A stretch of DNA of 33,360 nucleotides from Bacteroidota bacterium (lineage in GTDB: Bacteria; Bacteroidota; Bacteroidia; Bacteroidales; VadinHA17). The notes beneath the pieces were generated by a model that ran no database searches, was not told the DNA's origin, and was given only the letters and a program-made list of their open reading frames with translations. Positions 977 through 27,330 of the stretch are shown in pieces; the first letter of the stretch is position 1, and each line of letters opens with the position of its first letter. The DNA is taken from the NCBI GenBank assembly GCA_030596025.1, contig JAUVKW010000013.1:1-33360 (forward strand), given 5' to 3'. The translations under genes were made by a program, and so were the position numbers.

Positions 977-3208
977 ATGTCCATTATTTCGCAACATGAT
1001 AATCAATTAATAAAGGAGCAATTTGATGAGCTCCTGAATAACTTGCAGAGGGTTACTACAAGAAAAAACAAAGACCAGATCCGTAAAGCTTTTAAAGTTG
1101 CCAATGAGGCACATAAGCATATGAAAAGAAGGTCAGGTGAGCCCTATGTTCTGCATCCAATTGCTGTTGCCAGAATTGTTTCAGAGGAAATGGGACTGGG
1201 AACAATTTCCATATGTGCTTCTTTGCTTCATGATGTTGTGGAGGACACTGACTACACCCTGGAAAACATTGAAAATAATTTTGGAGAAAAAATTTCAACT
1301 ATTATCGATGGTCTGACAAAAATATCTAATGTATTTGACAAAAAATCCTCCCTCCAGGCTGAAAATTTCAGGAAAATGCTTCTTACCCTTTCAGACGATG
1401 TTAGGGTAATACTGATAAAACTTGCAGATCGATTACACAATATGCGTACTCTGGGATCTATGCCACCAAACAAAAGGTTGAAGATTGCCGGTGAAACAAT
1501 TTACCTTTATGCCCCGCTTGCACATCGTCTGGGCTTATATGCTATAAAAACCGAGTTAGAGGACCTAAGCCTAAAATACCGGCATAATAAGGTATACAGG
1601 CAAATTGGAAAACAAATAAAAGTAAATGAGAAAAAGAGGATCAATGAAATCACAAAATTCTCTCTGCCAATAATCTCAAGGCTTGACAGCACAAAATTAA
1701 ACTACGAAATTAATGGCAGGCCTAAATCAATCTATTCCATATGGAATAAGATACAAACTCAGAAAATTTCCTTTGAGGAGGTTTACGACCTGCTTGCAAT
1801 TCGTATAGTTTTTGATCCTATGGAAGGAATTCCGGAAAAAACCCAATGTTGGAATATCTATTCAATAATCACCGATATTTACCTGCCTAAACCTGACCGC
1901 CTCAGAGATTGGGTAAGTAAACCCAAGGCAAATGGGTATGAAGCCTTACATTGCACAGTCATGGGGCCCCACGGCAAATGGGCAGAGATTCAGATTCGCT
2001 CAAAACGCATGGATGAAATTGCAGAAAAAGGACTTGCTGCACATTGGAAATATAAAAAAAATGGTACCGGGGAAGATACCGAACTCGATAAGTGGATTAA
2101 GAAGATAAGGGAGCTTATTGATGATTCTGCTTCCGATGCTCTTGAATTCCTTGATGAATTTAAGTTAAACCTCTTTTCAGCTGAAATATTGGTATTTACT
2201 CCAAAAGGACATATCAAATCACTTCCAAAAAATGCAACAGTTCTTGACTTTGCATATGATATACATACCGAAATTGGAGATAAAGCCATTGGGGCAAAGG
2301 TTAATCATAAACTGGTTCCCTTCAGTCATGTTCTCAAATCAAGTGATCAGGTTGAGATCATTAGCTCTGATAAAAACAAACCACAACAAGAATGGTTGAA
2401 ATATGTAACAACAGCAAAAGCTAAATCCAGTATTACAAAATCGCTCAAGGCTGAAACAACCAACCGCATTGACCTTGGAAAAGAAATACTGGAGAAAGAG
2501 TTGAAGAAATATAACGTTCAACCATCCGGCAGAGTATTTAAAAAGCTTCTTCCTGCCTATGAAGTAACCAGTAAAGATCAATTGTACAGCAATATAGGCA
2601 GTGGGATTATTAAGCTGGAAAACCTGAAAAAGGTATTGAGAAAAAAATCAAGCAGTAAATGGATATGGTATTGGCGACCACAATTTGGAAAACAAAAACC
2701 CATAGAGCAAGAGAAAAAAGAGAGTAAGAAATTTAATTTCAAACAACCCTTCCTGATTCGTGAAGTCCCTGATAAATCAGAAGCAGAATACACAATATCA
2801 AGTTGCTGTAACCCTATACCCGGTGATGATGTGGTCGGCTACCAGGATGAAAACGGAAGCATAAACATTCATAAATCAAATTGCAATGAGGCAGTAAAGC
2901 TTATGTCACAACATGGCAATAGAATAGTCTCAGCAAAATGGACCACTCATAAGGTACTTTCTTACCTTGCCAGGATCAACCTGGTTGGAATAGACAAAAT
3001 TGGAATGATAAGGAATATTACTGAAATTATTTCTCAACAATTGAGTGTAAATATTCGTTCCCTGAATGTTGAAGTTCATGATGGAGTTTTCGAAGGCCTT
3101 GTCGATTTATATGTTCATAATACTGCTGACTTAAACAACCTTATTCTAAACCTGAGTAAGCTAAAAGGCGTCGATTCTGTTAAACGTGAGGAGATTGTGG
3201 GCACATAG
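977..3208 (+). CDS. Bifunctional (p)ppGpp synthetase/hydrolase (RelA/SpoT family)
   Basis: HD motif HDVVEDT, synthetase KANGYEALHCTV...EIQIRSKRMDEIAEKGLAAHWKYK, TGS and C-terminal ACT-like regions. Confidence 0.95.
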   Translation: MSIISQHDNQLIKEQFDELLNNLQRVTTRKNKDQIRKAFKVANEAHKHMKRRSGEPYVLHPIAVARIVSEEMGLGTISICASLLHDVVEDTDYTLENIENNFGEKISTIIDGLTKISNVFDKKSSLQAENFRKMLLTLSDDVRVILIKLADRLHNMRTLGSMPPNKRLKIAGETIYLYAPLAHRLGLYAIKTELEDLSLKYRHNKVYRQIGKQIKVNEKKRINEITKFSLPIISRLDSTKLNYEINGRPKSIYSIWNKIQTQKISFEEVYDLLAIRIVFDPMEGIPEKTQCWNIYSIITDIYLPKPDRLRDWVSKPKANGYEALHCTVMGPHGKWAEIQIRSKRMDEIAEKGLAAHWKYKKNGTGEDTELDKWIKKIRELIDDSASDALEFLDEFKLNLFSAEILVFTPKGHIKSLPKNATVLDFAYDIHTEIGDKAIGAKVNHKLVPFSHVLKSSDQVEIISSDKNKPQQEWLKYVTTAKAKSSITKSLKAETTNRIDLGKEILEKELKKYNVQPSGRVFKKLLPAYEVTSKDQLYSNIGSGIIKLENLKKVLRKKSSSKWIWYWRPQFGKQKPIEQEKKESKKFNFKQPFLIREVPDKSEAEYTISSCCNPIPGDDVVGYQDENGSINIHKSNCNEAVKLMSQHGNRIVSAKWTTHKVLSYLARINLVGIDKIGMIRNITEIISQQLSVNIRSLNVEVHDGVFEGLVDLYVHNTADLNNLILNLSKLKGVDSVKREEIVGT

Positions 3209-3289
3209 TTTTTTAAAATTATTCTAAATAATGCCTTATTTTTAAATAAATTGATTAAATTTAAGCCCTTAATTTTAATCTACTGATGT

Positions 3290-3742
3290 ATGATAAGAGA
3301 AGATACAAAACAAACCGTAAAGCAAATATTTACTGAGTATCTTGAAAAAAAAGGGCATCGTAAAACTCCTGAAAGATATGCCATACTCGATGAAATTTAT
3401 TCCAGGAACGGACATTTCGATATAGAATCACTCTATATATTCATGAAGAATAAAAATTACAGGGTTAGCCGGGCAACTCTGTATAATACCATTGAACTTC
3501 TGCTTGATTGCAACCTCGTTATCAAACATCAGTTTGGAAAAAATATTGCACAGTTTGAAAAAGCCTACCATTGCAGTCAACATGATCATCTGATTGACAC
3601 TGAATCTGGGGATGTTATTGAATTTTGCGATCCAAGAATTCATGAAATTATCAAAACTGCATGTGAGTTGAATAATTTCAAACCCTTATACCACTCCCTT
3701 TATATTTATGGTGTTAAGGAAGGGGAAGTAGCAAAGAAATAA
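3290..3742 (+). CDS. Fur-family transcriptional regulator
   Basis: [30 protein letters not shown]...[20 protein letters not shown] typical Fur winged helix. Confidence 0.9.
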
Positions 3743-3772
3743 GAGTATATAATAAGTTTATTCAGTCTATTG

Positions 3773-3797
3773 AACCTCCTGTCAGGAGGTTTTTTTT
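3773..3797 (+). terminator. Rho-independent terminator after fur-like gene
   Basis: aacctcctgtcaggaggtt followed by T-run. Confidence 0.8.
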
Positions 3798-3887
3798 ATT
3801 TGAATTAGACCTGGATAATGCAAATATATTCATCAAAGAATTTGTACCTTGCAATGCTATTTTTAAAGCTCAAAAAAATCCAATAAG

Positions 3888-5156
3888 ATGAAAATGGATG
3901 TTCTCTTAGGTCTTCAATGGGGAGATGAAGGCAAAGGTAAAATTGTGGATGTACTTACACCAAAGTATGATGTGATAGCCAGATTTCAGGGGGGGCCAAA
4001 TGCGGGACATACGCTTGAATTTGATGGTAATAAATATGTGCTTCATACTATTCCATCAGGGATTCATCATTCAGAAAAAATCAACCTCATTGGAAATGGT
4101 GTAGTTATTGACCCACTGATTTTTTATAAAGAAATCAAAGAGCTGGAAGGAATTGGGCTAAAATTGACAAAAAACTTATTTATTTCCAGAAAGGCCCATC
4201 TAATATTACCTACACACAGAGCTCTGGATGCTGCTTCAGAGGCCGCAAAGGGAAAAACAAAAATTGGCTCAACCCTGAAGGGAATTGGTCCCACTTATAT
4301 GGATAAAACCGGACGAAATGGCCTGAGAGTAGGTGATATAGTAAGCTCCGACTTTGAAGAGAAATATAATATCCTGAAGAAAAAGCATATTTCCCTTCTC
4401 AGGCAATTTGACTATGACTTTGAAGAGGAGTTAAATAACTACGAACACTTATGGCTCGATTCTATTGAAACTATCAAACGATTTAAGATTGTGGATAGTG
4501 AATATCTTATCAATTCATACCTGAATGAAAATCGCGCTGTTCTTGCTGAAGGAGCACAGGGATCCCTCCTTGATATTGATTTTGGATCATATCCTTTTGT
4601 AACCTCTTCTAATACGGTTTGTGCCGGTGCCTGTAACGGACTTGGAGTAGCTCCGGGAAGAATTGGGGAAGTTTATGGAATCTTTAAAGCCTATGCCACC
4701 CGGGTGGGAAGTGGCCCCTTTCCAACTGAACAAATCAATGATGTTGGAGAACAGTTGAGGAAAAATGGAAATGAGTTTGGTGCAACTACAGGAAGACCAA
4801 GAAGATGTGGCTGGTTAGACATGGTAGCCTTGAAATATTCGATTATGCTGAATGGTGTTACTCGTTTAATAATGACAAAAGCAGATGTTTTGACAGGTTT
4901 TGATAAGATCAAAATTTGTACAAACTACAAAGATTCAGGGTCTCCAGGATCCCAATTCCCATTTGAAATAAGCAAAAACCTCAAACCGGAATATTCTGAT
5001 TTCCCCGGATGGTCAAATGATTTAAGCAAAATTGTAAATTTTATTGATTTGCCCGAACAAATAAAACACTATGCCAGGTTCATAGAAGATGAACTTAAAG
5101 TACCTATTGAAATTATTTCAGTAGGCCCTGACAGGTCCGAGACAATTTTGAAATAA
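3888..5156 (+). CDS. purA: Adenylosuccinate synthase
   Basis: GLQWGDEGKGKIVD, QGGPNAGHTL, TTGRPRRCGW motifs. Confidence 0.97.
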   Translation: MKMDVLLGLQWGDEGKGKIVDVLTPKYDVIARFQGGPNAGHTLEFDGNKYVLHTIPSGIHHSEKINLIGNGVVIDPLIFYKEIKELEGIGLKLTKNLFISRKAHLILPTHRALDAASEAAKGKTKIGSTLKGIGPTYMDKTGRNGLRVGDIVSSDFEEKYNILKKKHISLLRQFDYDFEEELNNYEHLWLDSIETIKRFKIVDSEYLINSYLNENRAVLAEGAQGSLLDIDFGSYPFVTSSNTVCAGACNGLGVAPGRIGEVYGIFKAYATRVGSGPFPTEQINDVGEQLRKNGNEFGATTGRPRRCGWLDMVALKYSIMLNGVTRLIMTKADVLTGFDKIKICTNYKDSGSPGSQFPFEISKNLKPEYSDFPGWSNDLSKIVNFIDLPEQIKHYARFIEDELKVPIEIISVGPDRSETILK

Positions 5157-5469
5157 ACCATAGAACACCCACAATCCGCTGTTATTCAGACAGAAAGACG
5201 CCTTAATTTGATAATATCCTCCGATATATAAAAATTCCCAGGAATTTCAGGAGTAGAGTAAAAATAATAAAATAGGTAAGTTCAGATAAGTGGATTTGCT
5301 CCATTTTTAGCCTGAATGAACAATGTGGTGGGCTAAAACCCTATTATTCTAAAGCTTTTGTCCCATAGATTTCCTGACAGAGCTAAATTTAACAATTTTG
5401 GTTTGACTTTCTTCTCAAATTTGATTAACTTATATGAGAAAATTGACACTACTAAAGCTATTATAAATC

Positions 5470-12170: not shown

Positions 12171-14570
12171 TCATGAAGCTTCATGCTCAGTCCTTCTGAT
12201 GATCTCATTCTGCAGATCCTCCCCAAGATCATTAAAATAATCACTGTAACCTGCAACCCTGACAATCAGGTCCCTGTATTTTTCAGGATACTTCTGTGCA
12301 TCTCTCAGTGTTTCTACCCCTACTACATTAAACTGAATATGATGTCCCATCATTTTAAAATAAGTCCTTACCAGATCTCCTACCCTGAGAATGCTCTTTT
12401 CATCTCTGAAAAAGGAAGGAGTGAATTTCTGATTAAGCAATGTCCCTCCTGTTTTGAGATGATCAATTTTGGCAGCCGATTTTAATACCGAAGTAGGTCC
12501 CTTCTTATCAGAACCCTGTACCGGAGAAATGCCCTCTGAAAGTGCTTGAAAGGCTTTTCTTCCGTCAGGCATAGCCCCAATTTTACTCCCAAAGTAAATA
12601 TGTGATGTGGTTGGAAGCATATTTATCCGGAAAGTTCCCCCACGGGGTGTTGGATTGCCATCTACCAAATCGAAAAACATTTCAAAAACCGTTACAGCCT
12701 GGGCATCTGCATAATCCTCATCATTTCCATACCTGGGTGTCTGGTAAACCAGCTTATGTTGCATTTCTTCATAGCCAACAAAATCAGCATGAACGGCATT
12801 TAATACCTGCTGCATACTGTAGTTTTTCTCATCGAAAACATGATACTTTAATGCACTAAGACTATCGGTAATACTTCCAAGGCCCACCCCCTGTATATAA
12901 CTGGTATTGTAGCGGGCACCCCCGGCATTATAATCCACTCCTTCTTGAATACAATCATCGATTAACAAGGAGAGAAATGGAGCAGGCAGGTTTTTGGCCC
13001 ATATTTCTTCTATTATACTGTTCCCTTCCATTTTTATTTCAAGGAAATGCCCCAACTGCTTCCTGAAAGCTTCGATAACATCCTCAAAGGATTTGAATAC
13101 ATTAGGATCGCCTGACTTAATTCCGATTTCCTTCCCTGTTAATGGATCTCTTCCATTATTCAGCGTAATCTCCAGAACTTTTGTGAGGTTAAAGTAGCCG
13201 GTAAGAAAATAGGCTTCCGTACCAAAGGCCCCACTTTCCACACAGCCACTGGCTCCACCGTTTCTGGCATCTTCCAGACTTTTACCCTGACGTACCAGCT
13301 CCTCAACAATAGCCTCAGTATTAAAGATGGAAGGCTGCCCAAAACCTGTTTTTATTATTTTTAAGGCCCTGTGAATCAGCTCATCCGGATTTTGCTTACT
13401 TAGTTGAAGCATTGAAGATGGCTGCAGAATGCGCATCTCTTCAATTACATCAAGAATTAAATAACTGAGTTCGTTGCTTGCATCTGAACCATCAGTATTT
13501 ACTCCACCCACATTAATTAGGGAAAAATCAGTGTAGGTATTACTTTCCAGGGCTGTTACTCCAATTTTTGGTGGTGCGGGATGATTATTAAACTTGATCC
13601 AGAAACTCTGAAGTAATTCAGTAGCTTTCTCTTTTGTTAAGCTACCTTCATCAATTTCTTTCCTGTAATAAGGATAAAGATGTTGGTCGAGGCGACCTGG
13701 ATTAAATGAATCCCAGGGATTCAACTCTGTTATGACTCCCAGGTGCACAAACCAATAGTATTGAAGGGCCTCATGGAAGGTAAGGGGTGCATTGGCAGGA
13801 ACTCTCCTGCATATACCGGCCATGGTTTCCATCTCCTTTTTCCTGACTGGTTCATTTTCTTTTTGTGCAAGATCTTCAAGTTTGTCAGCATGCCTTCCGG
13901 CATATAAGATCAGAGCTCTGGCGGCTATTTTCATAGCTTCCAGTTCTTCTTTTTTCTCATTCCACCCCGTCCCCATCTTCATTCCCCTCCCGGGAGGGGC
14001 CAGGGCTGGGCTCCCTGCATCAAGATTTCTCAGGCTCTGCTCAATCTCAACAATCAGGTCGTTCATGCCCTTTTTGTATATCTTATCTCCCAATACCGTA
14101 TGCCCGGGGGCCCTCTGCTCCTGGAATTCAGTAAACAACCCGGCCTGGTAGGCATCCAGCCAGCTTTTGGAAACCGAATTCATGATCCTGTCCCGGTTCG
14201 TCTTCCCTTTCCAAAAGGGAATGATCATATCCTCATAAACCTTTCTTGTTTTTTCATCCACTTTAAAAAACACCTTTTTACGCCCATCAAGTATCTCCAG
14301 ATCCTCTATGGAATGAAGATTTATTTCAGGATAAGTTGGAGTTGCCTTGGGTGCAGGACCTCTCTCCCCAACTATAAGCTCATCCTCGTTGATACAGATA
14401 TGTTTATTCCTCAGGATATATTCCAGATTCAAGGCCCGGGTTACGGGAATAGAAGCTGATTGTGTTTCAGTGCTTTTATGAAACTCTGTGACGAGCAAAG
14501 CCCGCTCCGCTGAAATACGGGTTACCGCATCGAGACTTTGTTTTCGTAATTTTTTTATTCTTTTATTCAT
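12171..14570 (-). CDS. hypD: Glycyl radical enzyme, probable trans-4-hydroxy-L-proline dehydratase
   Basis: GGASGCVESGAFGTEAYFLTGYFN (thiyl Cys + Glu), TELNPWDSFNPGRLDQHL, glycyl-radical motif VRVAGYSDYFNDL; strong resemblance from memory to clostridial HypD. Confidence 0.82.
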   Translation of the reverse strand: MNKRIKKLRKQSLDAVTRISAERALLVTEFHKSTETQSASIPVTRALNLEYILRNKHICINEDELIVGERGPAPKATPTYPEINLHSIEDLEILDGRKKVFFKVDEKTRKVYEDMIIPFWKGKTNRDRIMNSVSKSWLDAYQAGLFTEFQEQRAPGHTVLGDKIYKKGMNDLIVEIEQSLRNLDAGSPALAPPGRGMKMGTGWNEKKEELEAMKIAARALILYAGRHADKLEDLAQKENEPVRKKEMETMAGICRRVPANAPLTFHEALQYYWFVHLGVITELNPWDSFNPGRLDQHLYPYYRKEIDEGSLTKEKATELLQSFWIKFNNHPAPPKIGVTALESNTYTDFSLINVGGVNTDGSDASNELSYLILDVIEEMRILQPSSMLQLSKQNPDELIHRALKIIKTGFGQPSIFNTEAIVEELVRQGKSLEDARNGGASGCVESGAFGTEAYFLTGYFNLTKVLEITLNNGRDPLTGKEIGIKSGDPNVFKSFEDVIEAFRKQLGHFLEIKMEGNSIIEEIWAKNLPAPFLSLLIDDCIQEGVDYNAGGARYNTSYIQGVGLGSITDSLSALKYHVFDEKNYSMQQVLNAVHADFVGYEEMQHKLVYQTPRYGNDEDYADAQAVTVFEMFFDLVDGNPTPRGGTFRINMLPTTSHIYFGSKIGAMPDGRKAFQALSEGISPVQGSDKKGPTSVLKSAAKIDHLKTGGTLLNQKFTPSFFRDEKSILRVGDLVRTYFKMMGHHIQFNVVGVETLRDAQKYPEKYRDLIVRVAGYSDYFNDLGEDLQNEIIRRTEHEAS
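13981..14018. repeat. GC-rich palindromic repeat, copy inside the hypD-like coding sequence
   Basis: attcccctcccgggagggg identical to 15542-15560; perfect 16-bp palindrome at 13984-13999; flank similarity (agg..ggg) continues. Confidence 0.85.
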
Positions 14571-14691: not shown

Positions 14692-15489
14692 CTACCCTCC
14701 AATACTCACGTCTAAACCACCTTCTTTAAAAGCAGCTTTCAGTTTCTCCAGATCCTCCTTCTTCTGTTCATCTACCGAGCGCATCTTATCAGGTATTGAA
14801 AAAGCCTCATACTTATGCCTGGCAATGTTGTGGTATGGCAACAGATCAAGCCTCCTGATCTGTGGTAATTCCTTTTTAAAAAAAAACTTCAGAGCCTCGA
14901 CATGTGCCTTGTCATCATTTATACCCGGTATTACCGGGAAACGTATCACAACATCTTTACCTGAATCATGAATGAGTTTCAGATTATCCAGAATTAGCTT
15001 ATTTGAGACTCCGGTATATTTTTTATGTATATCATCATCCAGATGTTTCAAATCATACAGAAAAAGATCTGGCCAACTCATTACTTTCCTCATAATATCC
15101 TTTGATGCATAGCCGGTGGTATCAAGAGCAGTATGTATTCCCTGCTCTCTGCAATGCTTCATCATTTCAATCAGAAATTCAGTTTGCAACAGTGGTTCAC
15201 CACCCGAAAAAGTAACTCCCCCTCCGGACTCATCCATAAATGCTTTTTCCTTAAGAATTTCCTGCATTAAATGATTTGCAGAAATCTCTCTGCCAACAAG
15301 CTCCTGCACTCTGAAAGTGCGGCCATTCAATTTTTGCTCCCTCATCACAATCTGAGGTTTTTGGGAGCGACTCTCAGGGTTATGGCACCACCAACATCCC
15401 AGGGGGCAGCCTTTAAAAAAGACCGTTACCCTGATTCCGGGACCCTCATGTATGGCAAAACGGTTTAGGTCAAATATTACTGCCTTCAT
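14692..15489 (-). CDS. Glycyl-radical enzyme activating enzyme (radical SAM), short form
   Basis: FKGCPLGCWWCHNPES (CxxxCxxC), ESGGGVTFSGGEPLLQ; adjacent to the GRE gene. Confidence 0.92.
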   Translation of the reverse strand: MKAVIFDLNRFAIHEGPGIRVTVFFKGCPLGCWWCHNPESRSQKPQIVMREQKLNGRTFRVQELVGREISANHLMQEILKEKAFMDESGGGVTFSGGEPLLQTEFLIEMMKHCREQGIHTALDTTGYASKDIMRKVMSWPDLFLYDLKHLDDDIHKKYTGVSNKLILDNLKLIHDSGKDVVIRFPVIPGINDDKAHVEALKFFFKKELPQIRRLDLLPYHNIARHKYEAFSIPDKMRSVDEQKKEDLEKLKAAFKEGGLDVSIGG

Positions 15490-15541
15490 CTCATCTTCCT
15501 ACGTTTCAAAATTATACGTGTAAAGTGACAATTAACTCATT

Positions 15542-15560
15542 ATTCCCCTCCCGGGAGGGG
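15542..15560. repeat. GC-rich palindromic repeat, intergenic copy
   Basis: attcccctcccgggagggg, identical to 13981-13999. Confidence 0.85.
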
Positions 15561-15629
15561 TTAGGCGTGGGTTTCCTTAATAGATCCAGCACTCGTAGAG
15601 GCGACGACAAAAGAACTTGCCGTATTTTT

Positions 15630-26897: not shown

Positions 26898-27098
26898 TAA
26901 TATAGTATTCCTGGTATCAACAAATAGCTGGATCCCGGGTCTACGCCTTCGAGTGTTAGAAAGAAGTTTGTGAAACCAGTTACTAAACCAATTACCTGGT
27001 TTCTTATTATCTGAACTCTATATGAAGTATTTCAGCCTCTGATGATAAATGTCAGGATCTTCGACCCTTCAGGCTGACAGCTTGAGGACAAAAAAAAT

Positions 27099-27121
27099 AG
27101 CACCGGGCTTTAGCCTGGTGT
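27099..27121 (-). repeat. Dispersed hairpin repeat, copy 2 (inverted relative to 788-810)
   Basis: agcaccgggctttagcctggtgt is the reverse complement of 788-810. Confidence 0.75.
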
Positions 27122-27330
27122 TAAGAGCAGAATCTAAGTCAGGTTTTGGCGCAAATTTTGCCTGGTGCTGAATCTTTAGATATGCCCAGATGGAAGATTT
27201 GTTGAAGGCAGCAAAATTTGTGACAAAACCGAAATATATGACGAAAACTCATTCAACTTCCAACACTCAATGTTTAAAACTCTTCCTCCTGTTTTCGCCA
27301 ATTAGCTTACCGGAACAAAAACAATAAACC

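Follow-up and report, generated by a model that had tools for sequence, protein, structure and literature searches.

The analysed stretch of DNA (the window, 33,360 nucleotides) belongs to a 3.12 Mb draft Bacteroidales assembly that is 90% complete and is probably a metagenome bin. It contains the gene of a glycyl radical enzyme, trans-4-hydroxy-L-proline dehydratase (HypD), whose reading frame includes one copy of a dispersed palindromic unit; another copy lies in a nearby intergenic region (Table 1). The assignment to HypD was based on a family score above the cut-off and on the presence of the Cys/Glu pair and the glycyl radical site: Cys443, Glu445 and Gly774 were invariant in an alignment of 36 sequences. 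6vxc was the best match by sequence as well as by structure. The neighbouring gene encodes the HypD activase, a radical SAM protein. With 265 aa this protein is short. Its match to the named family came in two stretches and reached 298.6, the cut-off being 425, and part of the usual activase may be missing from it.

Table 1. Features of the hypD region, and proteins of the phylum sample carrying an in-frame DUF559 domain (window positions, or locus).
Feature	Position or locus	Strand	Evidence or remark
hypD, trans-4-hydroxy-L-proline dehydratase (glycyl radical enzyme), 799 aa	12171..14570	-	NF043068, 1188.5 bits (cut-off 1100); 6vxc
20-residue loop AGSPALAPPGRGMKMGTGWN, codons 185-204	13959..14018	-	about 8 residues in homologues; pLDDT<50 at 187-200
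In-gene copy of dispersed palindromic unit	13975..14013	+	34/39 match to genome consensus
Perfect palindrome CCCCTCCCGGGAGGGG within in-gene unit	13984..13999	.	sequence
HypD activase (radical SAM), neighbour of hypD	14692..15489	-	profile match
Intergenic unit copy	15537..15577	+	between divergent activase and glutamate/dicarboxylate symporter genes
LeuRS with in-frame DUF559	L235, L251		Pfam
MetH with in-frame DUF559	L243, L246		Pfam
HsdM with in-frame DUF559	L240		Pfam
HsdR with in-frame DUF559	L237		Pfam
MmeI-like methylase ORF (putative protein) with in-frame DUF559	L236		Pfam
M23 peptidase ORF with in-frame DUF559	L250		Pfam

An earlier note on this DNA had pointed out a 19-mer shared by hypD and the intergenic region. 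The 19-mer, ATTCCCCTCCCGGGAGGGG, was indeed found in exact form at 13981-13999 and at 15542-15560, and dinucleotide-preserving shuffles of the window yielded 0 such matches. The likeness was said to continue past the palindrome, and the in-gene and intergenic copies could be aligned over 41 nt with 80% identity. The case of a repeat confined to these two copies had been set against the reading; pattern and BLAST searches of the genome revealed eight units, seven of them intergenic and one in hypD, two of the eight being on the window contig (C48). The copies on contigs C25, C46, C69, C110 and C186 are nearly identical to each other, the one on C83 is more diverged. The genome consensus is ATCTTCATTCCCCTCCTGGGAGGGGTTAGGGGTGGGTTC. 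The local score of the in-gene copy against this consensus was 29, compared with a maximum of 15 among 200 codon shuffles of the hypD coding sequence. If the TCCC end present in an array of the same genus (see below) is counted as part of the unit, the in-gene copy spans 13976-14015. Six-frame reading by eye showed the consensus to be free of stop codons in 4/6 frames. Palindromic units of this size (20-40 bp), dispersed mainly between genes, correspond to the dispersal pattern of REP elements. In the literature searched, mostly outside subscription journals, no paper with the repeat sequences was found. A second palindromic repeat, CACCAGGCTAAAGCCCGGTG, which also looks dispersed, is present in the window at 782-819 and 27090-27127 in opposite orientations.

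On the minus strand the hypD frame reads through the in-gene copy as NLDAGSPALAPPGRGMKMGTGWNEKKEE, as the earlier note had proposed. In this frame the consensus unit would encode NPPLTPPRRGMK, and the window encodes SPALAPPGRGMK. An alignment of 110 hypD loci was made (L115 being the window locus; a few genomes entered twice, via two collections); the homologues were mostly from Bacteroidales and other Bacteroidota and were at most ~74% identical. The insert peptide was found in 0/109 loci from other genomes, thus it is not common to the orthologues. Nearly all of the 109 homologues have ~8 residues between LD and the KKEEL-like motif, compared with 20 in the window. The net gain is 12 amino acids, or 36 nt, as deduced from the alignment of homologues and a codon-level view, and the difference of ~12 residues from clostridial HypD given in the earlier note was correct when checked against 6vxc. 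Since the unit is 39-40 nt long and the net gain is 36 nt, a few bases must have been lost or replaced. The sequence following the unit in the HypD loop, GGGGACGGGGTGG, is also unusually G-rich. Sequence comparison thus places a dispersed palindromic unit in frame in a loop of hypD whose homologues lack the insert, and the absence of the peptide from the 109 homologues together with the eight genomic copies supports the interpretation that an intergenic repeat is read here as a peptide insert.

The AlphaFold model of the window HypD (mean pLDDT 79.3, pTM 0.83) superimposed on 6vxc with a TM-score of 0.93, and its fold is otherwise that of HypD. Residues 187-200, located between helices 169-185 and 202-237, form the only long segment with pLDDT<50. 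Because the insert is predicted to lie in a loop and the catalytic residues are conserved, it is probably harmless to the enzyme.

The search for further in-gene cases, which had been suggested, detected a unit of the same family in frame in hsdM of another genome (G019). It reads RKFNEVRLPSPEGLGVGIIEDKFSF; 3lkd has a 14-residue gap at this place, and the alignment with 7vru is less clean. Both the hypD and the HsdM cases are in-frame insertions without a counterpart in orthologues or homologues, as described for the Rickettsia palindromic elements (RPEs). Unrelated dispersed repeats were also found in frame in HypD proteins of other Bacteroidota: one in the same loop (L059, hypD at 3001-5445; 46 matches in its genome) and another in a second loop, around residue 238 (L112, hypD at 3001-5436; 84 genome matches). 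These repeats indicate that tolerance of the loops is general and that in-frame capture is not unique to the window unit. Similar short tandem-repeat inserts are present at the second loop in L042 and L081. The 27-aa inserts of L104 and L106, common to both genomes, look native by eye and were rejected as repeat-derived. Other long ORFs overlapping units (L147, L150, L155, L174) gave no Pfam hits and were regarded as spurious, and in L154 the unit lies upstream of the point where a TPP-enzyme gene of the acetolactate-synthase type probably starts.

Among family-level relatives the unit was present in 10/59 genomes, with up to 30 matches in one genome, and several of the matches adjoin genes of the DUF559 family. 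In L171 one DUF559 gene is located exactly between inverted units. In a reverse approach, DUF559 genes were located by profile, and GC palindromes within 300 bp of the domain were counted and compared with those farther off in the same loci. The proximal regions contained 41 palindromes in 15.7 kb, the distal ones 6 in 60 kb (26-fold enrichment, binomial p 3e-22). Control loci had 19 in 362 kb, the density near DUF559 being 50 times higher. A palindrome was found near the gene in 19/28 of the family loci, and on both sides in 11/28. Inverted similarity of the flanks exceeded that of 100 shuffles in 15/25 testable loci, not all of which represent palindrome units (L177 does not) and some of which have stronger direct repeats. 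In family loci, DUF559 genes were thus found between inverted units consisting of a palindrome and a tail. The palindrome test was devised after the first cases had been seen, and a sample of the phylum served as a largely independent repeat. Enrichment of perfect hairpins was weaker in this sample, at 7.9-fold (16 in 17.2 kb versus 8 in 67.7 kb, p 1e-6), and they occurred in 8/29 loci. Taken statistically, these counts show that related palindromes frame DUF559 genes, usually in inverted orientation.

Two DUF559 genes are present in the window's genome, and their palindromes are related but not identical to the unit. In a genome of the same genus (G001, contig C67; L190, 1296-1440) four tandem units of the window type are located upstream of a DUF559 gene. 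They carry the window unit's own 5' TCTTCATT, and their tails differ in length; the end of the contig limits the view of the array to one side. Long palindromic modules border the DUF559 genes of L188, L192, L202 and L205 as direct and inverted copies.

Eight DUF559 domains of the phylum sample are contained within longer ORFs having other Pfam domains (Table 1), and several of the host genes are essential or restriction genes. Peptides encoded by palindromes, PLPPSPQKGE and LPFGEGRGG among them, border the embedded domains. The inverted flank score was higher than that of all 500 codon shuffles in 6/8 of these palindrome-DUF559-palindrome cassettes; for the weaker ones the score was reached by 2/500 (L250) and 8/500 (L235) shuffles. 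According to the Pfam domain layout the host domains resume on both sides of the cassette in LeuRS, MetH and HsdR. The two LeuRS loci come from organisms of one family, and so do the two MetH loci, therefore a shared cassette site can be explained by inheritance.

In the DUF559 alignment E55, D57, G58 and H61 were invariant. The DUF559 profile matched 3hrl as well as 3r3p, the latter being a mobile intron protein that we take to be I-Bth0305I. I-Bth0305I is a homing endonuclease of the EDxHD type (PMC3943268). A DUF559 protein of Caulobacter that is linked to DNA damage was described as a Vsr-like nuclease of the PD-(D/E)XK type (PMC12907096). The EDxHD/Vsr-like homing endonucleases resemble the present system in that a profile-related nuclease domain is encoded in mobile DNA (PMC3943268), but the ends of the DUF559 cassette are palindromic and the host frame appears to run uninterrupted through it. 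A literature search, mostly outside subscription journals, found no relevant paper on DUF559 together with palindromic repeats, which hints that the link may be new.

In-gene palindromic repeats as such are already known, since REPs within genes have been described, some of which were argued to occupy flexible linkers or loops (PMC3733652). The REPtrons of the same source share with the present system dispersed 20-40 bp palindromes, some of them in genes, and repeats framing a mobility gene. REPs with a GTAG tag are paired with RAYT transposases (PMC3733652), whereas here the framed gene encodes a DUF559 Vsr-like nuclease, the GTAG tetranucleotide was at either end in 0/8 aligned units, and the RAYT profile (Y1_Tnp, PF01797) had no match in the window's genome. 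Because the assembly is 90% complete, this absence is not absolute. With neither tag nor RAYT found, the unit was rejected as a RAYT/GTAG-type REP element, and a RAYT/Y1 transposase as its mobiliser. The likeness to RPEs suggested in the earlier note holds as an analogy, that of a coding palindromic element, and less readily as identity: sequence and size differ, and no common lineage was identified. RPEs and other CGTC-tagged repeats are also short palindromes, intergenic as well as in frame and tolerated as extra peptide (PMC3733652). They have no dedicated transposase and end in CGTC (PMC3733652), whereas the window unit is made up of a CCCCTCC palindrome plus a GGGGTGGG tail, adds ~12 aa and is linked to a nuclease gene; by eye, and compared with RPEs by their description, it is without a CGTC end. 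The Coxiella MITEs, small mobile repeats discussed as material for protein evolution (PMC5896051), appear to be another type of element.

As the comparison with homologues lacking it shows, a unit of ~40 bp, consisting of a hairpin and a G-rich tail, entered a surface loop of hypD in frame in this Bacteroidales lineage and is translated as ~12 additional residues. The unit is a member of a broad palindrome-plus-tail family which, by the statistics above, flanks the genes of DUF559 Vsr-like nucleases, usually in inverted orientation. These data suggest the following mechanism. The nuclease would cut DNA, and palindromic units, either solo or as the full palindrome-DUF559-palindrome cassette, would be copied or captured at the break. 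Being stop-free in 4/6 frames, units landing in permissive loops could survive selection in coding sequence. DUF559 may thus mobilise the units. We consider it probable that the hypD insertion stems from a REP-like palindromic family which flanks DUF559 genes and that nuclease-linked capture is the likely mechanism. For the wider generalization the chances seem even: a mobile element widespread in Bacteroidota, in which DUF559, framed by inverted palindromes, has the part played in REPtrons by the tyrosine transposase, and whose insertion is in frame and without splicing, either as a nuclease domain (LeuRS, MetH, HsdM, HsdR) or as solo hairpin peptides of 12-14 residues (HypD, HsdM).

Among the alternatives, the one to be taken most seriously, possible but not favoured, is that a real dispersed repeat entered hypD and was spread otherwise, by replication slippage, recombination or a tyrosine transposase elsewhere, with DUF559 as a repeat-tolerant passenger. 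The unrelated repeats in HypD of L059 and L112 show that the loops accept repeats that have no link to DUF559, and movement of the units is deduced here entirely from sequence comparison. However, no RAYT/Y1 transposase was found in the window's genome, and the palindromes cluster at DUF559 genes, not in their distal surroundings, usually inverted like terminal repeats. It is rather unlikely that the hypD unit is a scar, left when a full palindrome-DUF559-palindrome cassette was deleted to one unit. Full in-frame cassettes do occur elsewhere, as in hsdM of L240, while hsdM of L208 has a solo unit, and the second G-rich stretch GGGGACGGGGTGG adjoins the unit in the HypD loop; but the sites in the two hsdM genes are not the same, there are more solo units than cassettes in the window's genome, and a cassette was present in 0/109 HypD homologues.

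That the unit is kept in hypD as a functional element, for instance a hairpin in the RNA, a regulatory site or a transcription terminator, is very improbable: hairpin formation is conceivable for a perfect GC palindrome, but folding of the in-gene strand was no more stable than that of shuffles (z 0.20), Rfam gave no match at the in-gene unit, and the position is in the middle of a gene. Even less credit can be given to a native loop resembling the repeat by chance or by convergent G+C-rich low complexity. Proline- or glycine-rich loops are common and this loop is variable among homologues, yet the nucleotide identity of 34/39 extends to the non-palindromic ATCTTCATT, no matches are expected from the shuffles, and the insert is absent from all 109 homologues.

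Rickettsia and some REP-rich genomes are known to have in-frame palindromic repeats; here such a repeat was found in a glycyl radical enzyme of an anaerobic Bacteroidales lineage, along with a candidate gene for its mobility. Should DUF559 move the units, a role would be assigned to a 'domain of unknown function'. If true, the proposed mechanism would provide a directly testable route from DNA hairpins to protein segments, including those of essential enzymes.
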